In this document: positions 4,026-35,580 of the stretch, piece after piece
How the letters are laid out: each line of letters starts with the position of its first letter
Numbering within the stretch: position 1 is the stretch's first letter
DNA from: a virus
Direction: 5' to 3' (one strand)
DNA length: 37,010 nucleotides
Virus record (IMG/VR): IMGVR_UViG_3300046462_000163
Location: 1-37,010 of that record
Notes under the pieces: generated by a model
What the model saw: only the letters and a program-made list of their open reading frames with translations
Database searches by the model: none
Told to the model about the DNA's origin: nothing
Position numbers and translations under genes: made by a program

Positions 4026-4121
4026 CTCTCAACGCTGGCGCACGCATTAGCGGGCATGCAACGTACTACCGCTGGAGATGAGACTCGCACCAGCCGCCAG
4101 CACCCAATACAAGGAACGATC

Positions 4122-5891
4122 ATGAAACTTTCACGAATCCAGGTTGATAACTTCCTCGGCGCGCATCAGATCGATGTCAAGCTGACGACTCCCGTTACTC
4201 TGTTCGCCGGCCCGAACGGCGCCGCCAAGTCCAGCATCGGCGAAGCCGTGCGCATGGCGATGACCGGCGACGTGGTGCGCGTGAAGTTGAAAAAGGAATA
4301 TTCCCAGCTGGTGACCGACGGCGCTAAAGCCGGCGGCGGCCTGATCACCACCGACAACGAAAGCACCTACGCATTCAACGTGCCAGGCGGTGAAGTCAAG
4401 GCCGACGACGGCCTGCCGACTGGCGACACCGTTGGCGTGGCACTGAACGGCCAGTACTTCACAGCTATGACCGACGACGAGCGCCGCACCTTCCTGTTCA
4501 GGCTGACAGGGATCAAGATCAAAACCGACGACATCAAGGCCAGGATGACTGCGCGCGCCTGCGACCCCGCTAAGATCGAGGCGACCTTGCCGTTGCTGCG
4601 TACTGGTTTTCCCGACGCCTGCGACTTCGCTAAGACCAAGGCGACCGAATCCAAGGGCGCATGGCGCATCACCACCAGCGAGACTTACGGCGCGAAGAAA
4701 GCCGATATATGGAAGGCCGAGAAGCCGGCGCCGATGGCGGCCGATGATCAACCGACAGCGGAAACACTGGCTGCCTTCGATACCGACATCGCCGAATTGA
4801 ATCAGAAAATCGGACAGATCACTGCCGAGAGCAACACCCGCACCGCGAACGCCGGCAAGCGCGCTGCGCTGGCAACCCGCGCCGGCAATGTCGACCGGGT
4901 GCGCGAGAATCTGGGACATGCAAAGGGTGAGCTGGCCGCCTACGAGCCGCAGGTAGTAGCACTGCGCGAGCGCGCCGCCGGCACTATCCGGATCGGCCTT
5001 GTCCATGACATGGCGGCTTTCCTGTTCAGTTTCACGCCTGAAAATGGCGAAGACCGCGTTGCGTCCGACAAGTTGCTGGACCGCTACGAGGAAGAACACG
5101 GCGAGATTTCCGAGGTCGGCACCGTCGACCAGGATGCAAAAAACTCCCTGCCGGAATATGAGCGCGGCCTGGAAGTCATGCAGAACGCTGTCAAAAATCT
5201 GGAGCGTGACCTGGCCAGTGCCATCGCTGCCAAGGCTGAATTCGACGCCCTGGCGCCAGCCGAGAAGGAAGCGCCATTGCCTGACCTGGCGCAGCTGCAA
5301 AACGATCTTGCCCAGCTAAAGACTGACAGCGCCATCACTCAGGGCCAGGTCAATGCCGCGGCGAACTATGACAGCCTAGTCGAAGCATCGAAGAAAAAGA
5401 CCGCTGACGCTGCTAAACATCACGCCGATGTGTTGGCCTGGACCGTAGTGGCCGACGCCCTGGCACCCGATGGCATCCCCGGCGATCTGCTGGTCGAAGC
5501 CCTGGCGCCGGTCAACGAATCGCTGGCAGTGGAAGCCACGATGACGAGCTGGATGCAAGTTTGTATCTCGCCGGATATGCAAATCACCGCCGGCGGCCGC
5601 ACCTATAACCTGCTGTCCGAGTCGGAAAAATGGCGCACCGACGCGATGATCGCCGTCACGGTGGCGCGCCTGTCCGGACTCAAGATCCTGATGCTCGATC
5701 GCGTCGACGTGCTGGACCTGCCGGGCCGCTCGACGTTGCTCAGCTGGCTGAACGCTCTGGTGATCGATGGCGATATCGAAACCGGCCTGCTGTTCGCTAC
5801 CCTCAAGACGCTGCCGGCCAAGATGTACCCGACCATGACAGCGCACTGGATCGAGGGCGGTGCTGTCGTCAAGTTTAAGGAGGCTGCATAA
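4122..5891 (+). CDS. SMC/RecF-like AAA ATPase, 589 aa
   Basis: Start ATG 4122 (after AAGGAA) gives MKLSRIQVDNFLG, the usual opening of RecF/SbcC-type ATPases. An in-frame upstream ATG at 4056 lacks a ribosome site. Walker A is GPNGAAKSS (residues 30-38). A central helical region (about 230-460) could form a short coiled coil, without an obvious Rad50-type CxxC zinc hook. The signature-like LLSESEKWR and Walker B ILMLDRVDVLD (Asp526) lie at the C-terminus. Position 527, normally the catalytic Glu of ABC-type ATPases, is Arg. Expected role: DNA-end processing with the neighbouring nucleases. It overlaps the next gene by one base (TAATG). Confidence 0.82.
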   Translation: MKLSRIQVDNFLGAHQIDVKLTTPVTLFAGPNGAAKSSIGEAVRMAMTGDVVRVKLKKEYSQLVTDGAKAGGGLITTDNESTYAFNVPGGEVKADDGLPTGDTVGVALNGQYFTAMTDDERRTFLFRLTGIKIKTDDIKARMTARACDPAKIEATLPLLRTGFPDACDFAKTKATESKGAWRITTSETYGAKKADIWKAEKPAPMAADDQPTAETLAAFDTDIAELNQKIGQITAESNTRTANAGKRAALATRAGNVDRVRENLGHAKGELAAYEPQVVALRERAAGTIRIGLVHDMAAFLFSFTPENGEDRVASDKLLDRYEEEHGEISEVGTVDQDAKNSLPEYERGLEVMQNAVKNLERDLASAIAAKAEFDALAPAEKEAPLPDLAQLQNDLAQLKTDSAITQGQVNAAANYDSLVEASKKKTADAAKHHADVLAWTVVADALAPDGIPGDLLVEALAPVNESLAVEATMTSWMQVCISPDMQITAGGRTYNLLSESEKWRTDAMIAVTVARLSGLKILMLDRVDVLDLPGRSTLLSWLNALVIDGDIETGLLFATLKTLPAKMYPTMTAHWIEGGAVVKFKEAA

Positions 5892-9954: not shown

Positions 9955-10962
9955 ATGGCAAGTATCCAGAAAGTCGGCGCGAGCTGGAAGGCTCAGATTG
10001 CCATCCTCGGCCGCCGCGAGAGCAGATCGTTCAAGACGAAGCGCGAGGCTGAGGCATGGGCCGGCCGTCGGGAAACTGAGATCAGGGATGCCAAGAACCT
10101 GCATCCTGGCGAGCGCCACACGCTGCTGGATGCGCTGCGCAAGTATGCTGAGGAAGTATCCCCTACCAAACGTGGGGAGCGCTGGGAGACGCTGCGGCTC
10201 AATGCCTTCGAACAGCATGCGCTGCCGCTGACAAAGCCGATCGGGAAGATTGTGCCAGAAGACTTGGCAACCTGGCGTGACAGCCGGGCCAAGATTGTGC
10301 AGCCGGGCACCATCCTGCGGGAAATCAGCCTGCTATCGGCGGTCCTAGAATCGGCCCGGCGCGAATGGCGCTGGATCGACCAGAACCCGCTGCGGGACAT
10401 GCGCAAGCCGAAAGAGCCGAAGCACCGCAAGACGCTCATCAGCCGGCCGCAGCTCAAGCGCATGCTGCGCCAGCTGGGATATGTCAAAGGGAAGGTTCGG
10501 ACGATCACTCAGGCGGTGGCCTGCTGCCTGCTACTGGCTCTGCGCTCAGGAATGCGCGCCGGCGAGCTATGCGAGTTGACCTGGGACCGGGTGCACACCG
10601 GCTACTGCCAGCTGGTAAAAACGAAGAATGGCACCGAGCGCGATGTGCCGCTGACGCCCAAGGCGCGGGCAATCATCGAGCAGATGCGGGGATTTGACGA
10701 GGAACTGGTGTTCGGATTGAAAGCACAGACATTGGATGCCCTCTTCCGGCGCGCGCGAGAACGGGCTGGGCTATCGGGATTCACCTTCCACGATTCGCGC
10801 CATACGGCCGCTACATGGATCGCCGGCCGCATGCAGTCAAACGGCATAGCCGCCCAGCAAGCTGTCTTCGACCTCTGCAAGATGTTCGGCTGGACCAAAC
10901 TCGACCAAGCGCTGGTCTACTACAACGCCAGCGCTGCCGACATCGCCAAGCGGATTCTCTGA
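9955..10962 (+). CDS. int: Tyrosine integrase, 335 aa
   Basis: The catalytic set of a tyrosine recombinase is present: Arg in SGMRAGELCELTW (about residue 201), HDSRHTAATW (His and Arg about 279-283) and the nucleophile Tyr in ALVYYN near the C-terminus. The N-terminal 50 residues resemble the arm-binding domain (MASIQKVGASWKAQI), and residues 60-160 form the core-binding domain. It would insert the phage genome into the host chromosome. Start ATG 9955 lacks a clear ribosome site and abuts the candidate arm sites, so bound integrase could limit its own expression, which is inference. The gene ends one base before the convergent Rz gene. Confidence 0.93.
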   Translation: MASIQKVGASWKAQIAILGRRESRSFKTKREAEAWAGRRETEIRDAKNLHPGERHTLLDALRKYAEEVSPTKRGERWETLRLNAFEQHALPLTKPIGKIVPEDLATWRDSRAKIVQPGTILREISLLSAVLESARREWRWIDQNPLRDMRKPKEPKHRKTLISRPQLKRMLRQLGYVKGKVRTITQAVACCLLLALRSGMRAGELCELTWDRVHTGYCQLVKTKNGTERDVPLTPKARAIIEQMRGFDEELVFGLKAQTLDALFRRARERAGLSGFTFHDSRHTAATWIAGRMQSNGIAAQQAVFDLCKMFGWTKLDQALVYYNASAADIAKRIL

Positions 10963-32644: not shown

Positions 32645-33388
32645 TCACACGTGCTGGCCATCGTGCTCTTGACGCGCCAGCTCCTGTTTGCGCGCGACAA
32701 TCGCGGCGGCTTCCTGGCGCAGCTCTTCCTCTCGGCGTTGGGCAGCCTTCACCGATGGCGGCACCAGCGTTTTCATCATTTCCTTGAGCCGGGCCAGCCC
32801 TTCGGGGCAGCGCTCTTGCGCGCTGACTTGCATCGGCAGGAACAAGCTCGCCTGCGGCGCAGCGATGCGCCCCAGCTTCGCAGCATGCTGCACAGCGATC
32901 TGCCGCTTGGCCTGGTCATGCCCGGCAGAAAGTTCCCATCGGGCCGGCCGCGCGGCGCGTTTTGCCTCATGCACGAGCCTGGCATAGGCATCCTTGAACG
33001 CCATGCGGGCGCCAACATTATCGAAGGCCTCGAGCAGCGGCCGGCAGATGGCAAACGCATCCCGCATTTCCTCGGTCCATACCACCGTTTCCAGCTCGCT
33101 TACGGCTGGGAATGACAGCGCCCAAGCTTCCTCGACACCAGGCCGCCCATCGCCACCGTTCGCCGCTTCGATGTGGGCGACGATATCGGCCGGCATCGGC
33201 TGAAACGAACCGCGTTTCGGATCGCGAATGTGTGCGGTGAATGCCTGGCGCACGGCCTGCAACGAGTACGGCTCCAGGGCTTTGAAAAACAGCGCCTTGG
33301 CGCCGGCTTCTAGGCGCGGCCAGCGCGGGTTGAGCAGGAAAACGCTGTCCAGCACTTGGCCGAACTCGGGGAAGTCATGTTCGAACAT
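32645..33388 (-). CDS. Replication loader-like protein (lambda P/DnaT position), 247 aa
   Basis: Start ATG 33388 follows a strong GGAGG six bases upstream and overlaps the initiator gene by 14 bases. The N-terminal third (FPEFGQVLDSVFLLNPRWPR, then FQPMPADIVAHIEA) resembles the small helical domain that phage P-type loaders share with primosome proteins. The C-terminus (AIVARKQELARQEHDG) is a charged helix. Placed directly after the initiator, it is the likely helicase loader. The family is not certain; a general replication accessory protein is the alternative. Confidence 0.6.
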   Translation of the reverse strand: MFEHDFPEFGQVLDSVFLLNPRWPRLEAGAKALFFKALEPYSLQAVRQAFTAHIRDPKRGSFQPMPADIVAHIEAANGGDGRPGVEEAWALSFPAVSELETVVWTEEMRDAFAICRPLLEAFDNVGARMAFKDAYARLVHEAKRAARPARWELSAGHDQAKRQIAVQHAAKLGRIAAPQASLFLPMQVSAQERCPEGLARLKEMMKTLVPPSVKAAQRREEELRQEAAAIVARKQELARQEHDGQHV

Positions 33389-34310
33389 CGATAGCCTCCA
33401 TGGGGTTGCCAAAAAGCATTTGCCGCGCTTGCTCGTTCACGGCGTCGAGCTGGGCCTGTCCATTCGGCAGCGCATCCCGCGCTTGGCCGTTCTGCGTCCA
33501 TTCGGCCTTGAAGCCGGTCCAACCGCGCATGCACGACATCTGCAGGGCGCTTTGCAGGGATAGTCCGGCCTTGGATGCTTCCCTGGCCGTCAGATCGATG
33601 ACGGTCTGCGTGACTGCGGCCTTTTTCGCTTTGCGGTGTGCAATCCAGTCCTTGGCGGTCTGGTCATCGACCCCGAGTTTTTCGAGTTCTGCAGACGCCG
33701 AGAATTTCGGCAGCTCTTGTTTTTCTAATCCCTCTCTCTTTCCCTGTCCACTGTCCCTATCCCTGTCCACTATCCCTATCAGAGTGTTTTCCGTTGGAAT
33801 TTCACCATTTGTCCGCAGGACATTTTCATTGTGTCCAGCGGACAGATTATTGGTGTCCTGTGGATTTCCTTGTTCCATGCGAGCGTCTTCCTGTGCCTTT
33901 TGAGCGGCCCGAATCGCTGCTTTGCGCAACCGATCGGCTTCTTTTTTGTCGCGGTAATCAAGGCGCCCTTGCCACGCTTCGTTAGCTTTTTCACTCACAA
34001 CAGGGTGATAAAGGCGGCCGTCAGAGCATTTGATCCAGCCGCGCAAAGCGCCCTCGCGAACCTTTTTCCATTCCTTCACCACGAAGCCGAAACCGGCCAA
34101 TTTGGCGAGGGAAATATCGTCATCCGGTAAAGATGCCGCAGGCACTTGATGCCAAGAAGCGCACCAAAGCAAAACTGCGCTCCGAAATTCATTTCCAGTA
34201 GAAAGTCCGGCAAGATCGCTATCACGCAACCGCAAAACATCCAGCGGCATGAAAGAAAAGTCACGCAAATTGCAATCGGCTGATGTCAGCGGGGTCGGTA
34301 AGTCTGTCAT
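33375..34310 (-). CDS. DUF1376-type replication initiator, 311 aa
   Basis: Residues about 11-95 (NLRDFSFMPLDVLRLRDSDL, NEFRSAVLLWCASWHQVPAA, SLPDDDISLAKLAGF, CSDGRLYHPVVSEKANEAWQ) match DUF1376, an N-terminal winged-helix domain of phage and prophage initiators. A long basic, low-complexity linker follows (residues about 115-195), then a small helical C-terminal domain (SASAELEKLGVDDQTAKDWI). The linker is encoded by the iteron array. As with lambda O, the protein probably binds its own coding sequence to open the origin and recruit the loader encoded next. ATG 34310 overlaps the methylase stop. Confidence 0.78.
   Translation of the reverse strand: MTDLPTPLTSADCNLRDFSFMPLDVLRLRDSDLAGLSTGNEFRSAVLLWCASWHQVPAASLPDDDISLAKLAGFGFVVKEWKKVREGALRGWIKCSDGRLYHPVVSEKANEAWQGRLDYRDKKEADRLRKAAIRAAQKAQEDARMEQGNPQDTNNLSAGHNENVLRTNGEIPTENTLIGIVDRDRDSGQGKREGLEKQELPKFSASAELEKLGVDDQTAKDWIAHRKAKKAAVTQTVIDLTAREASKAGLSLQSALQMSCMRGWTGFKAEWTQNGQARDALPNGQAQLDAVNEQARQMLFGNPMEAIDVRT
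33742..33779. repeat. Two tandem 19-bp repeats beside the iterons
   Basis: CCCTGTCCACTGTCCCTAT at 33742-33760 is followed directly by a second copy with one mismatch at 33761-33779. Each holds TGTCC boxes like those in the iterons next to it. Because 19 is not a multiple of three, the copies are read in different frames, so the repeat serves the DNA rather than the protein. It is pyrimidine-rich on the plus strand. Confidence 0.7.
33788..33875. repeat. Candidate replication origin: four 22-bp iterons
   Basis: Imperfect palindromes T[GT]TCC-N3-GGA begin at 33788, 33810, 33832 and 33854, each exactly 22 bases apart. The central two are perfect (TGTCC-GCA-GGACA and TGTCC-AGC-GGACA); the outer two are weaker. 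They lie in the linker of the initiator gene, and the block is richer in A/T than its surroundings. Iterons inside an initiator gene beside an easily melted region is the lambda ori plan. Origin activity is inferred. Confidence 0.65.
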
Positions 34311-35161
34311 GCGAACATCCCCATTTGGTCGGTTTCAGCTACCAGGGCATCGGCGCAAGCTGGATTGATCCACACGCACTCTGTCCGCAAGCCAGTGCCA
34401 CGGCCGGCACTGATACGTGCGCTGGTGGTGGACTTCTGCCAATGCGCCAGCCTGGTTTCGTAGAGGGGTGATGCATAGCCGGACAGGACAACAAATCCTT
34501 CTAGCTCGAGCACGACATCCAGCAATTCGGCATGGTCGGCATCGGTCATTTCATGGCGGTAATAGCTGCGCGAGGCATCCATTACGCGGGTTTCGTGCAT
34601 GTAAGGCGGGTCGACAAAGTGCAGTGTGGTAGGAGCATCGTGCTGGCGCATGACATCGATGGCCGGCCGGTTCTCAATCACGACACCGGTTAGCCGCTGT
34701 CCAGCGGCAGATACAGCGGCCGGATAGTGCGTCCATAGGTGCTGAGCGGTGCCGTATTCGCGCTTGGTGTCGATGCGAAAGCCAGTGCTGCCCTTCGTCG
34801 CGCCGGCAGAACCAAAGCCCATCTGCGCACGTATGGCGAGCCGGCGCGCCTCTTCGATTGGGTCATCGGTATGCGTCCAGGCCGCCTCGAATTCGGTACG
34901 AGCGTAAGGCGTCAGCACCAGGCTCTCAATAAGCTGGCCACGGAGAACGGGATCCCGAAGGATGCGGAAGTAATTAGCGACTGTGCCGTCCAGGTCGTTA
35001 TAGACCTCGGCATAGGAACGGGGCTTTTGCAGCATGACGCCGGCGGCACCGCCGAACGGTTCCACATAGCACCGATGCTCAGGAAAAAAGGTCATGATCC
35101 AGGGCGCCAGGCGAAATTTAGCGCCGTGATACCGCAGAACTGGGCTTGTAATTTCGCTCAC
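34307..35161 (-). CDS. DNA adenine methylase, D12/Dam class, 284 aa
   Basis: Motif I is CYVEPFGGAAGVM (residues 31-43), and the catalytic motif IV is DPPY (Asp184-Tyr187 in LHFVDPPYMHE). N-terminal RYHGAKFRLAPWI is the usual Dam start. It transfers methyl groups from S-adenosylmethionine to adenine in DNA and may protect phage DNA from restriction or affect replication. GTG 35161 overlaps the preceding stop (GTGA); an ATG at 35191 would extend it by ten residues. Both candidate starts are separated by an eight-G run (35166-35173) on the coding strand. The target sequence cannot be told. Confidence 0.88.
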   Translation of the reverse strand: MSEITSPVLRYHGAKFRLAPWIMTFFPEHRCYVEPFGGAAGVMLQKPRSYAEVYNDLDGTVANYFRILRDPVLRGQLIESLVLTPYARTEFEAAWTHTDDPIEEARRLAIRAQMGFGSAGATKGSTGFRIDTKREYGTAQHLWTHYPAAVSAAGQRLTGVVIENRPAIDVMRQHDAPTTLHFVDPPYMHETRVMDASRSYYRHEMTDADHAELLDVVLELEGFVVLSGYASPLYETRLAHWQKSTTSARISAGRGTGLRTECVWINPACADALVAETDQMGMFA

Positions 35162-35580
35162 ACAGCCCCCCCCAGCACGTCGACGCACCACTCAATCGGA
35201 GTCCTGCGGCCGGCGGTGAACAATCCAGCCGCAGCCGGCACGGTCCGCTGCTTCACCGGCATGAGTTCCTTCTTGCTTTCCAGCGGCGGCGCGATGATCT
35301 TCCGCGTTCGGTATTTCACATGCTCAGGTTCCGGCGGTTCGACTGCGGCGCCGGCCAGAAAATAGATGTTGCGGGAATTGGAGCGATCGACGGCCAGCGC
35401 CTTCCCCTGCATTTTGAAAACCTGGCCTTTGACCTGGTCGTAGGTGGCATTTGGCTGCATGGCATAGACGTTCTGCGTCAATTCCCTCAGCCCCAGCCCG
35501 TTCGGCGATACCAACAGGACGGATTTAATGGCGGCACGGATTTCACGCATTTCGCTGCGCTTCCCAAGTGGCGCTGTCAT
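35158..35580 (-). CDS. Winged-helix-like small protein, 140 aa
   Basis: Residues about 11-80 (EMREIRAAIKSVLLVSPNGL, GLRELTQNVYAMQPNATYDQ, then KGQVFKMQGKALAV) look like a compact winged helix. A proline-rich tail follows. The gene ends in LGGAV, coded by the eight-G run, and its TGA overlaps the methylase GTG. A regulator or DNA-binding role is possible but unproven. Confidence 0.62.
   Translation of the reverse strand: MTAPLGKRSEMREIRAAIKSVLLVSPNGLGLRELTQNVYAMQPNATYDQVKGQVFKMQGKALAVDRSNSRNIYFLAGAAVEPPEPEHVKYRTRKIIAPPLESKKELMPVKQRTVPAAAGLFTAGRRTPIEWCVDVLGGAV

Follow-up and report, generated by a model that had tools for sequence, protein, structure and literature searches.

The window analysed here is the whole of a 37,010-nt stretch of viral DNA (IMG/VR virus record IMGVR_UViG_3300046462_000163, positions 1 to 37,010; one strand, 5′ to 3′), and the locus under study lies within a gene for a putative replication initiator, whose features are collected in Table 1. 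The N-terminal part of the initiator is matched by Pfam DUF1376 (E = 3.2e-9, 37.5 bits vs. a cut-off of 30.1), and the protein also matches two PHROGs, that is, 'replication protein' over residues 4–144 (1.5e-52) and 'replication initiation O-like' over residues 146–290 (5.2e-21). In the AlphaFold model, the predicted protein is composed of a winged-helix-type N-domain (residues ~20–146, high pLDDT) ending with a long helix, a linker of low pLDDT that is predicted to be disordered (residues ~150–204), and a small helical C-domain (residues 205–262, high pLDDT) situated within the O-like/primosomal PHROG match. The array DNA described below is the coding sequence of exactly this predicted disordered linker. 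When the model was compared with the PDB by Foldseek, the top five hits were DNA-binding domains of plasmid-type initiators (4PTA, 5KBJ, 4PQL), none of them significant (E 0.39–1.8); a PDB sequence search with the initiator gave no match, and neither did NCBIfam.

Directly upstream of the initiator gene, and overlapping it by 4 bases, lies a D12-class adenine DNA methyltransferase gene (34307–35191, minus strand). The gene in the lambda P position is not recognisable as one for a helicase loader, and the structure model of its product is of low confidence and gave no meaningful fold match. Elsewhere in the window there is a recombination module, in which exonuclease-like, RecT-like annealing and SbcC-like proteins are encoded at 749–1630, 1653–2654 and 4056–5891 (all plus strand; PHROG matches). 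A phage integrase gene is located at 9955–10962 (plus strand), so the phage is probably temperate.

Table 1. Features of the candidate origin region and the genes around it
Feature	Position	Strand	Sequence or basis
Initiator gene, 311 aa	33375..34310	-	Pfam DUF1376, PHROG matches and AlphaFold model
Iteron 1 (gene order)	33854..33866	.	half-degenerate dyad, coding-strand sequence AATCC-ACA-GGACA; position kept across the 22-bp family
Iteron 2	33832..33844	.	perfect dyad TGTCC-N3-GGACA
Iteron 3	33810..33822	.	perfect dyad TGTCC-N3-GGACA
Iteron 4	33788..33800	.	degenerate dyad TTCC-N3-GGAA
Hexamer/heptamer array	33739..33776	-	coding strand GGGATA-GTGGACA-GGGATA-GGGACA-GTGGACA-GGGAAA
Purine/A-rich stretch, candidate melting region	33714..33738	-	GAGAGAGGGATTAGAAAAACAAGAG; similar to GGGATTAAAGATCAAGAG, which follows the array in phage phi297 (L089)
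Hairpin	33697..33711	-	GCCGA-AATTC-TCGGC directly behind the A-rich stretch; sequence and RNA fold
Gene in lambda P position	32645..33388	-	overlaps the end of the initiator gene; phrog_6028; ORF opens TTG 33412, ATG 33388

Four dyads of the form T[GT]TCC-N3-GGA are found within the initiator gene (34310–33375, minus strand), namely TTTCC-GTT-GGA at 33788, TGTCC-GCA-GGACA at 33810, TGTCC-AGC-GGACA at 33832 and TGTCC-TGT-GGA at 33854, with spacings of exactly 22, 22 and 22 bp; positions, spacing and sequences are all as the preliminary description of this DNA had given them. The perfect form TGTCC-N3-GGACA occurs just twice in the 37,010 bases, at 33810 and 33832, and the box of iteron 4 (33788) is degenerate in relatives too (AATCCGGCGGAAAA). 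When the whole window was dinucleotide-shuffled 300 times, not one shuffle had even two TGTCC-N3-GGACA boxes at a constant spacing of 10–40. A motif-agnostic scan of the whole window for four dyads with any gap of 0–6 and a constant spacing of 16–30 returned the same array as the top locus of the 37 kb (gap 3 and spacing 22, with 17 of 20 positions paired), a score that was matched by none of 300 synonymous-codon permutations of the initiator gene. The four boxes lie in three codon phases and encode PQDT, LSAGH, VLRT and PTEN, so the 22-bp period belongs to the DNA level, and the earlier claim that the pattern is not a by-product of protein repeats is borne out. As for other landmarks, GC-skew has no clear switch at the array, no DnaA box lies near it (three in the window sit elsewhere, a chance-level number), and no Rfam element was found.

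It had been proposed that related phages be examined for periodic TGTCC-N3-GGACA sites, and the origin idea survived this check, as the same 22-bp array was found in nine related distinct genes. When IMG/VR was scanned for pairs of TGTCC-N3-GGACA boxes lying 0–30 apart, 37 stretches were obtained, in which the commonest spacing was 22 (17 of 56 pairs), followed by 21 (9 pairs), and the 22-bp pairs were mostly located in the linker of this DUF1376 initiator gene family (LSxGQ..V.RT..N/SPxENAL). Across the nine genes, the third codon bases are 97% conserved in the boxes vs. 72% in the spacers, 69% in N3 and 67% in the N-domain. Conserved amino acids with four- or six-fold degenerate codons have an invariant third base in 6 of 6 cases in the boxes, whereas for the N-domain the figure is 5 of 50 (taken from 6 of the 9 genes), and the Fisher value of 1.4e-5 is indicative only, since the nine genes are kin and do not amount to nine independent confirmations.

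Next to the dyads lies the second array. The preliminary description had placed two 19-bp repeats here as further carriers of the TGTCC box; the repeats are indeed present (33732–33750 and 33751–33769), but they are not extra iteron copies; each is made of units of 7 + 6 + 6 bp from a separate GGACA-unit array that is much more widely conserved. In the window this array consists of GGACA/GGATA units with a spacing of 7-6-6-7; because of this spacing, its lag-6 periodicity is not significant against synonymous permutation (p 0.06), and the array is recognised through comparison, not by itself. Close kin carry mixtures of units or (GTGGACA)n, whose period of 7 runs through each of the three frames in turn; more distant DUF1376 genes carry plain (GGGACA)n. 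Judged from this comparison, the 7-6-6-7 array of the window is a degenerate version of the (GGGACA)n array of DUF1376-type initiator genes. Copy numbers range between 2 and 15 units.

Two or more tandem units stand at the equivalent place in 19 of 23 relatives picked by protein similarity alone, several of which are near-identical to one another, and in these 19 the array is read as Gly-Thr (9), Gly-Gln (9) or Asp-Arg (1). On the coding strand, a GGGACA-type array is found in 85 of 92 DUF1376-type genes and on the other strand in 0 of 92, a set that was partly fetched by the hexamer and is thus biased upward. In a quickly built tree of 38 N-domains, at least seven changes in the reading frame of the array are counted among the 31 labelled genes. 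Among the IMG/VR matches listed for (GGGACA)3, 67 of 120 lie behind a DUF1376-type signature, as compared with 0 of 120 for each of the composition-matched controls, (GGAGCA)3 and (GGCAGA)3; the comparison concerns the fraction in DUF1376 genes, each motif having at least 120 matches whose totals are not comparable. In addition, Pfam DUF1376 was detected in 34 of 64 hexamer-bearing ORFs outside those already classed by the earlier signature filter. One relative (L015) has the C-domain of the window without DUF1376 and without the GGGACA array, so in this one comparison the array goes with the N-domain. No description of the GGGACA element was found in the open-licence literature, where an older subscription paper could be missed, and it is apparently an undescribed part of such origins.

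In gene order, the dyads, the hexamer array, the A-rich stretch and the hairpin follow one another in a fixed order. The iterons ahead of the array vary by group (TGTCC-N3-GGACA at 22, TGTCCC..GGGACA at 22–23, AACGTGACG at 12, GAAACG at 12, CGTCTACG at 12, TGTAACA at 12, CCTGTCAC..GTGACAGG, and CCCGAATCGGG), and many of their spacings are 11–12, 22–24, 33–34 or 45, that is, near multiples of the helical turn. While the type of iteron changes between groups, the downstream hexamer array persists. The array is followed by an A-rich stretch, such as GGGATTAAAGATCAAGAG in phi297 and GGGATTAGAAAAACAAGAG in the window, and a hairpin is often present as well. The bounds of the proposed origin should therefore reach to about 33697, so that the A-rich stretch and the hairpin are included. 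The candidate melting region reaches an overall A+T content of only ~0.6 over 30 nt, which counts against the reading as an origin.

The resemblance to lambda ori within gene O, already remarked upon in the first account of the locus, was upheld for the layout, with iterons in the middle of the gene and an A-rich stretch and a hairpin alongside, although no similarity between the initiator itself and lambda O could be detected. The layout of the lambda/Stx origin has been described, and lambda ori needs transcriptional activation (PMC7466680). In the lambda sequence fetched for comparison, four iterons spaced 20, 24 and 23 are followed by GGGGGACACAAAAGACAC and A-rich DNA and then by a hairpin, GTCAGAG...CTCTGAC, at the place equivalent to that of the window hairpin; a gene overlaps downstream in both phages, a second replication gene in lambda and the gene in the P position in the window, and the C-terminal part of the window initiator matches the PHROG named O-like (residues 146–290). 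However, BLASTP gave no similarity of the window initiator to O (E 8) or of the next gene to P, the N-domain belongs to the DUF1376 family, the iteron sequence is another one and its spacing is exactly 22 bp instead of 20/24/23, a GGACA-unit array stands between the iterons and the A-rich stretch, and the A+T content is weaker than in lambda.

A similar use of linker DNA is known from plasmids. It has been reported for pSK41 Rep that the winged-helix N-domain binds four boxes central in rep, the ori DNA encoding a dispensable linker that is followed by a separate C-domain (PMC5703833). Such RepA_N initiators share with the window the arrangement that ori DNA encodes the linker between a predicted winged helix and a C-domain, but the window initiator has no RepA_N Pfam match, the structural similarity is not significant (best E 0.39), and RepA_N belongs to Gram-positive plasmids, not phages. 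Having neither lambda O homology nor a RepA_N domain, the putative origin of the window is thus not filed under either of them. The DUF1376 replication proteins of phi297, Magia and vB_PaeS-D14L share the N-domain family (tblastn), and most have iterons or repeats and then a GGGACA-type array; they differ in that the iteron sequences are mostly others, the proteins are annotated merely as replication, phage or hypothetical protein, and no origin features are annotated in the stretches viewed. For MD8-like Pseudomonas phages, repeats within the O-like gene were taken as support for a lambda-like origin, and in the passages concerned (PMC8508860) these repeats are not further described. Two relatives (L015 and L094) combine the C-domain of the window initiator with another N-domain and lack the GGGACA array; their own dyads, CCGAAAACGG, are reminiscent of lambda iterons.

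Taken from sequence and structure prediction, the locus is very probably the replication origin of a temperate phage, lying inside its own initiator gene. This reading is favoured because the array is beyond chance, the protein belongs to initiator families, the domain order fits, the third bases are conserved, and the order of the parts is lambda-like; the candidate origin put forward at the outset thus continues to be the best-supported reading, the domain families, the predicted winged helix and disordered linker over the array, the third-codon conservation and the nine related genes being in agreement. Against it stand the lack of a clear GC-skew switch and of a nearby DnaA box, the modest A+T content, a neighbouring gene that is not recognisable as encoding a helicase loader, and Foldseek hits that fall short of significance. 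If the dyads were instead operator sites, through which the initiator or another phage regulator controls its own operon or immunity while replication begins elsewhere, palindromic boxes at a 22-bp spacing would be expected, as they are typical of cooperative dimer binding generally; we regard this as very unlikely, as the boxes are deep in the coding region and not at a promoter, they adjoin an A-rich stretch and a hairpin in the order of lambda ori, and the change of iteron types with a persisting downstream hexamer array is a better fit to an origin. That selection at the protein level for a flexible Gly/Gln/Thr linker made the repeats, with the dyads as by-products, would agree with the predicted disorder of the linker, but its probability is close to negligible: neither 22 nor 7 is divisible by 3, third bases in the boxes are conserved above those of the folded domain, and GGGACA stays the same although the peptide it encodes may be Gly-Thr, Gly-Gln or Asp-Arg. 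The codon phases, the third-base conservation and the synonymous permutations, which never reproduced the dyad array, already contradict it.

For the origin reading, we infer a mechanism as follows. The DUF1376 winged-helix N-domain would bind the four dyads as dimers and wrap the DNA; being two helical turns apart, the dyads would all lie on one DNA face. Strand separation would then start in the neighbouring GGACA-unit array and the A-rich stretch; here the initiator may fold back from the iterons and hold one strand of the repeated GGACA units, and the C-domain together with the product of the next gene would recruit the host helicase. That initiators bound to iterons can capture a strand is established in the case of plasmid Rep and of RctB (PMC10797057), and on weighing the alternatives we tentatively favour strand capture as the role of the GGACA/GGGACA array over those of a recombination joint or an R-loop or G-quadruplex former, while holding it to be somewhat less than an even prospect.

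Outside any origin mechanism, the array could be a recombination joint, or a slippage-prone tract, at which N-domain and iterons are swapped against different C-domains. Three relatives (L093, L139 and L207) are 99–100% identical behind the array as against a background of 0.63 before it, the identity between L093 and L207 begins inside the hexamer array, and the variable copy number of the units points the same way; from this pattern, the N-domain of the initiator and the iterons behave as a cassette that can be exchanged, with the array as its junction. Nevertheless, the swaps are seen in only a few pairs, a joint could itself arise as a side effect of an origin element that is conserved, and slippage alone accounts neither for the same hexamer in three frames, on one strand only and across divergent N-domains, nor for the 7-6-7 form in the clade of the window, so we consider this explanation unlikely. 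Rather less likely still is that the array forms a G-quadruplex or R-loop on the non-template strand and opens the origin during transcription. This would suit the constant placement on the coding strand (85 vs. 0), the fit of (GGGACA)4 to the G-quadruplex rule and the transcriptional activation needed at lambda ori (PMC7466680), but the strict motif occurs in only 13 of 29 relatives and is absent from the window and the relative L016, whereas the GGACA units persist. The strict G-quadruplex is accordingly rejected as a conserved property.

More broadly, a large set of phages with DUF1376 initiators may share an origin written in two codes, in which exchangeable, phage-specific iterons are combined with one invariant, strand-oriented (GGGACA)n that is read differently by the same protein family (for example, as single strand during melting) and has been kept through repeated frame changes; we offer this as a possibility to which we give a little under half of our belief. 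If true, this would make it a class of origin element new to the viruses of bacteria. The observations themselves provide a rule, based on sequence, by which origins can be located in a widespread phage group annotated mostly as 'hypothetical' or 'replication protein', and they show one DNA element that stays conserved while the protein reads it in three frames. What an initiator needs beyond iterons becomes a question that simple synonymous mutations can address in Pseudomonas and Burkholderia phages amenable to culture.

Two further groups were met among the sequences collected. Three very long proteins (1100–1900 aa; L173, L183 and L213) consist largely of Gly-Thr repeats and are not initiators, and further arrays of TGTCC-N3-GGACA dyads, with spacings of 20–33 bp, are found in other genes or ORFs (L107, L110, L119, L124, L133 and L134).
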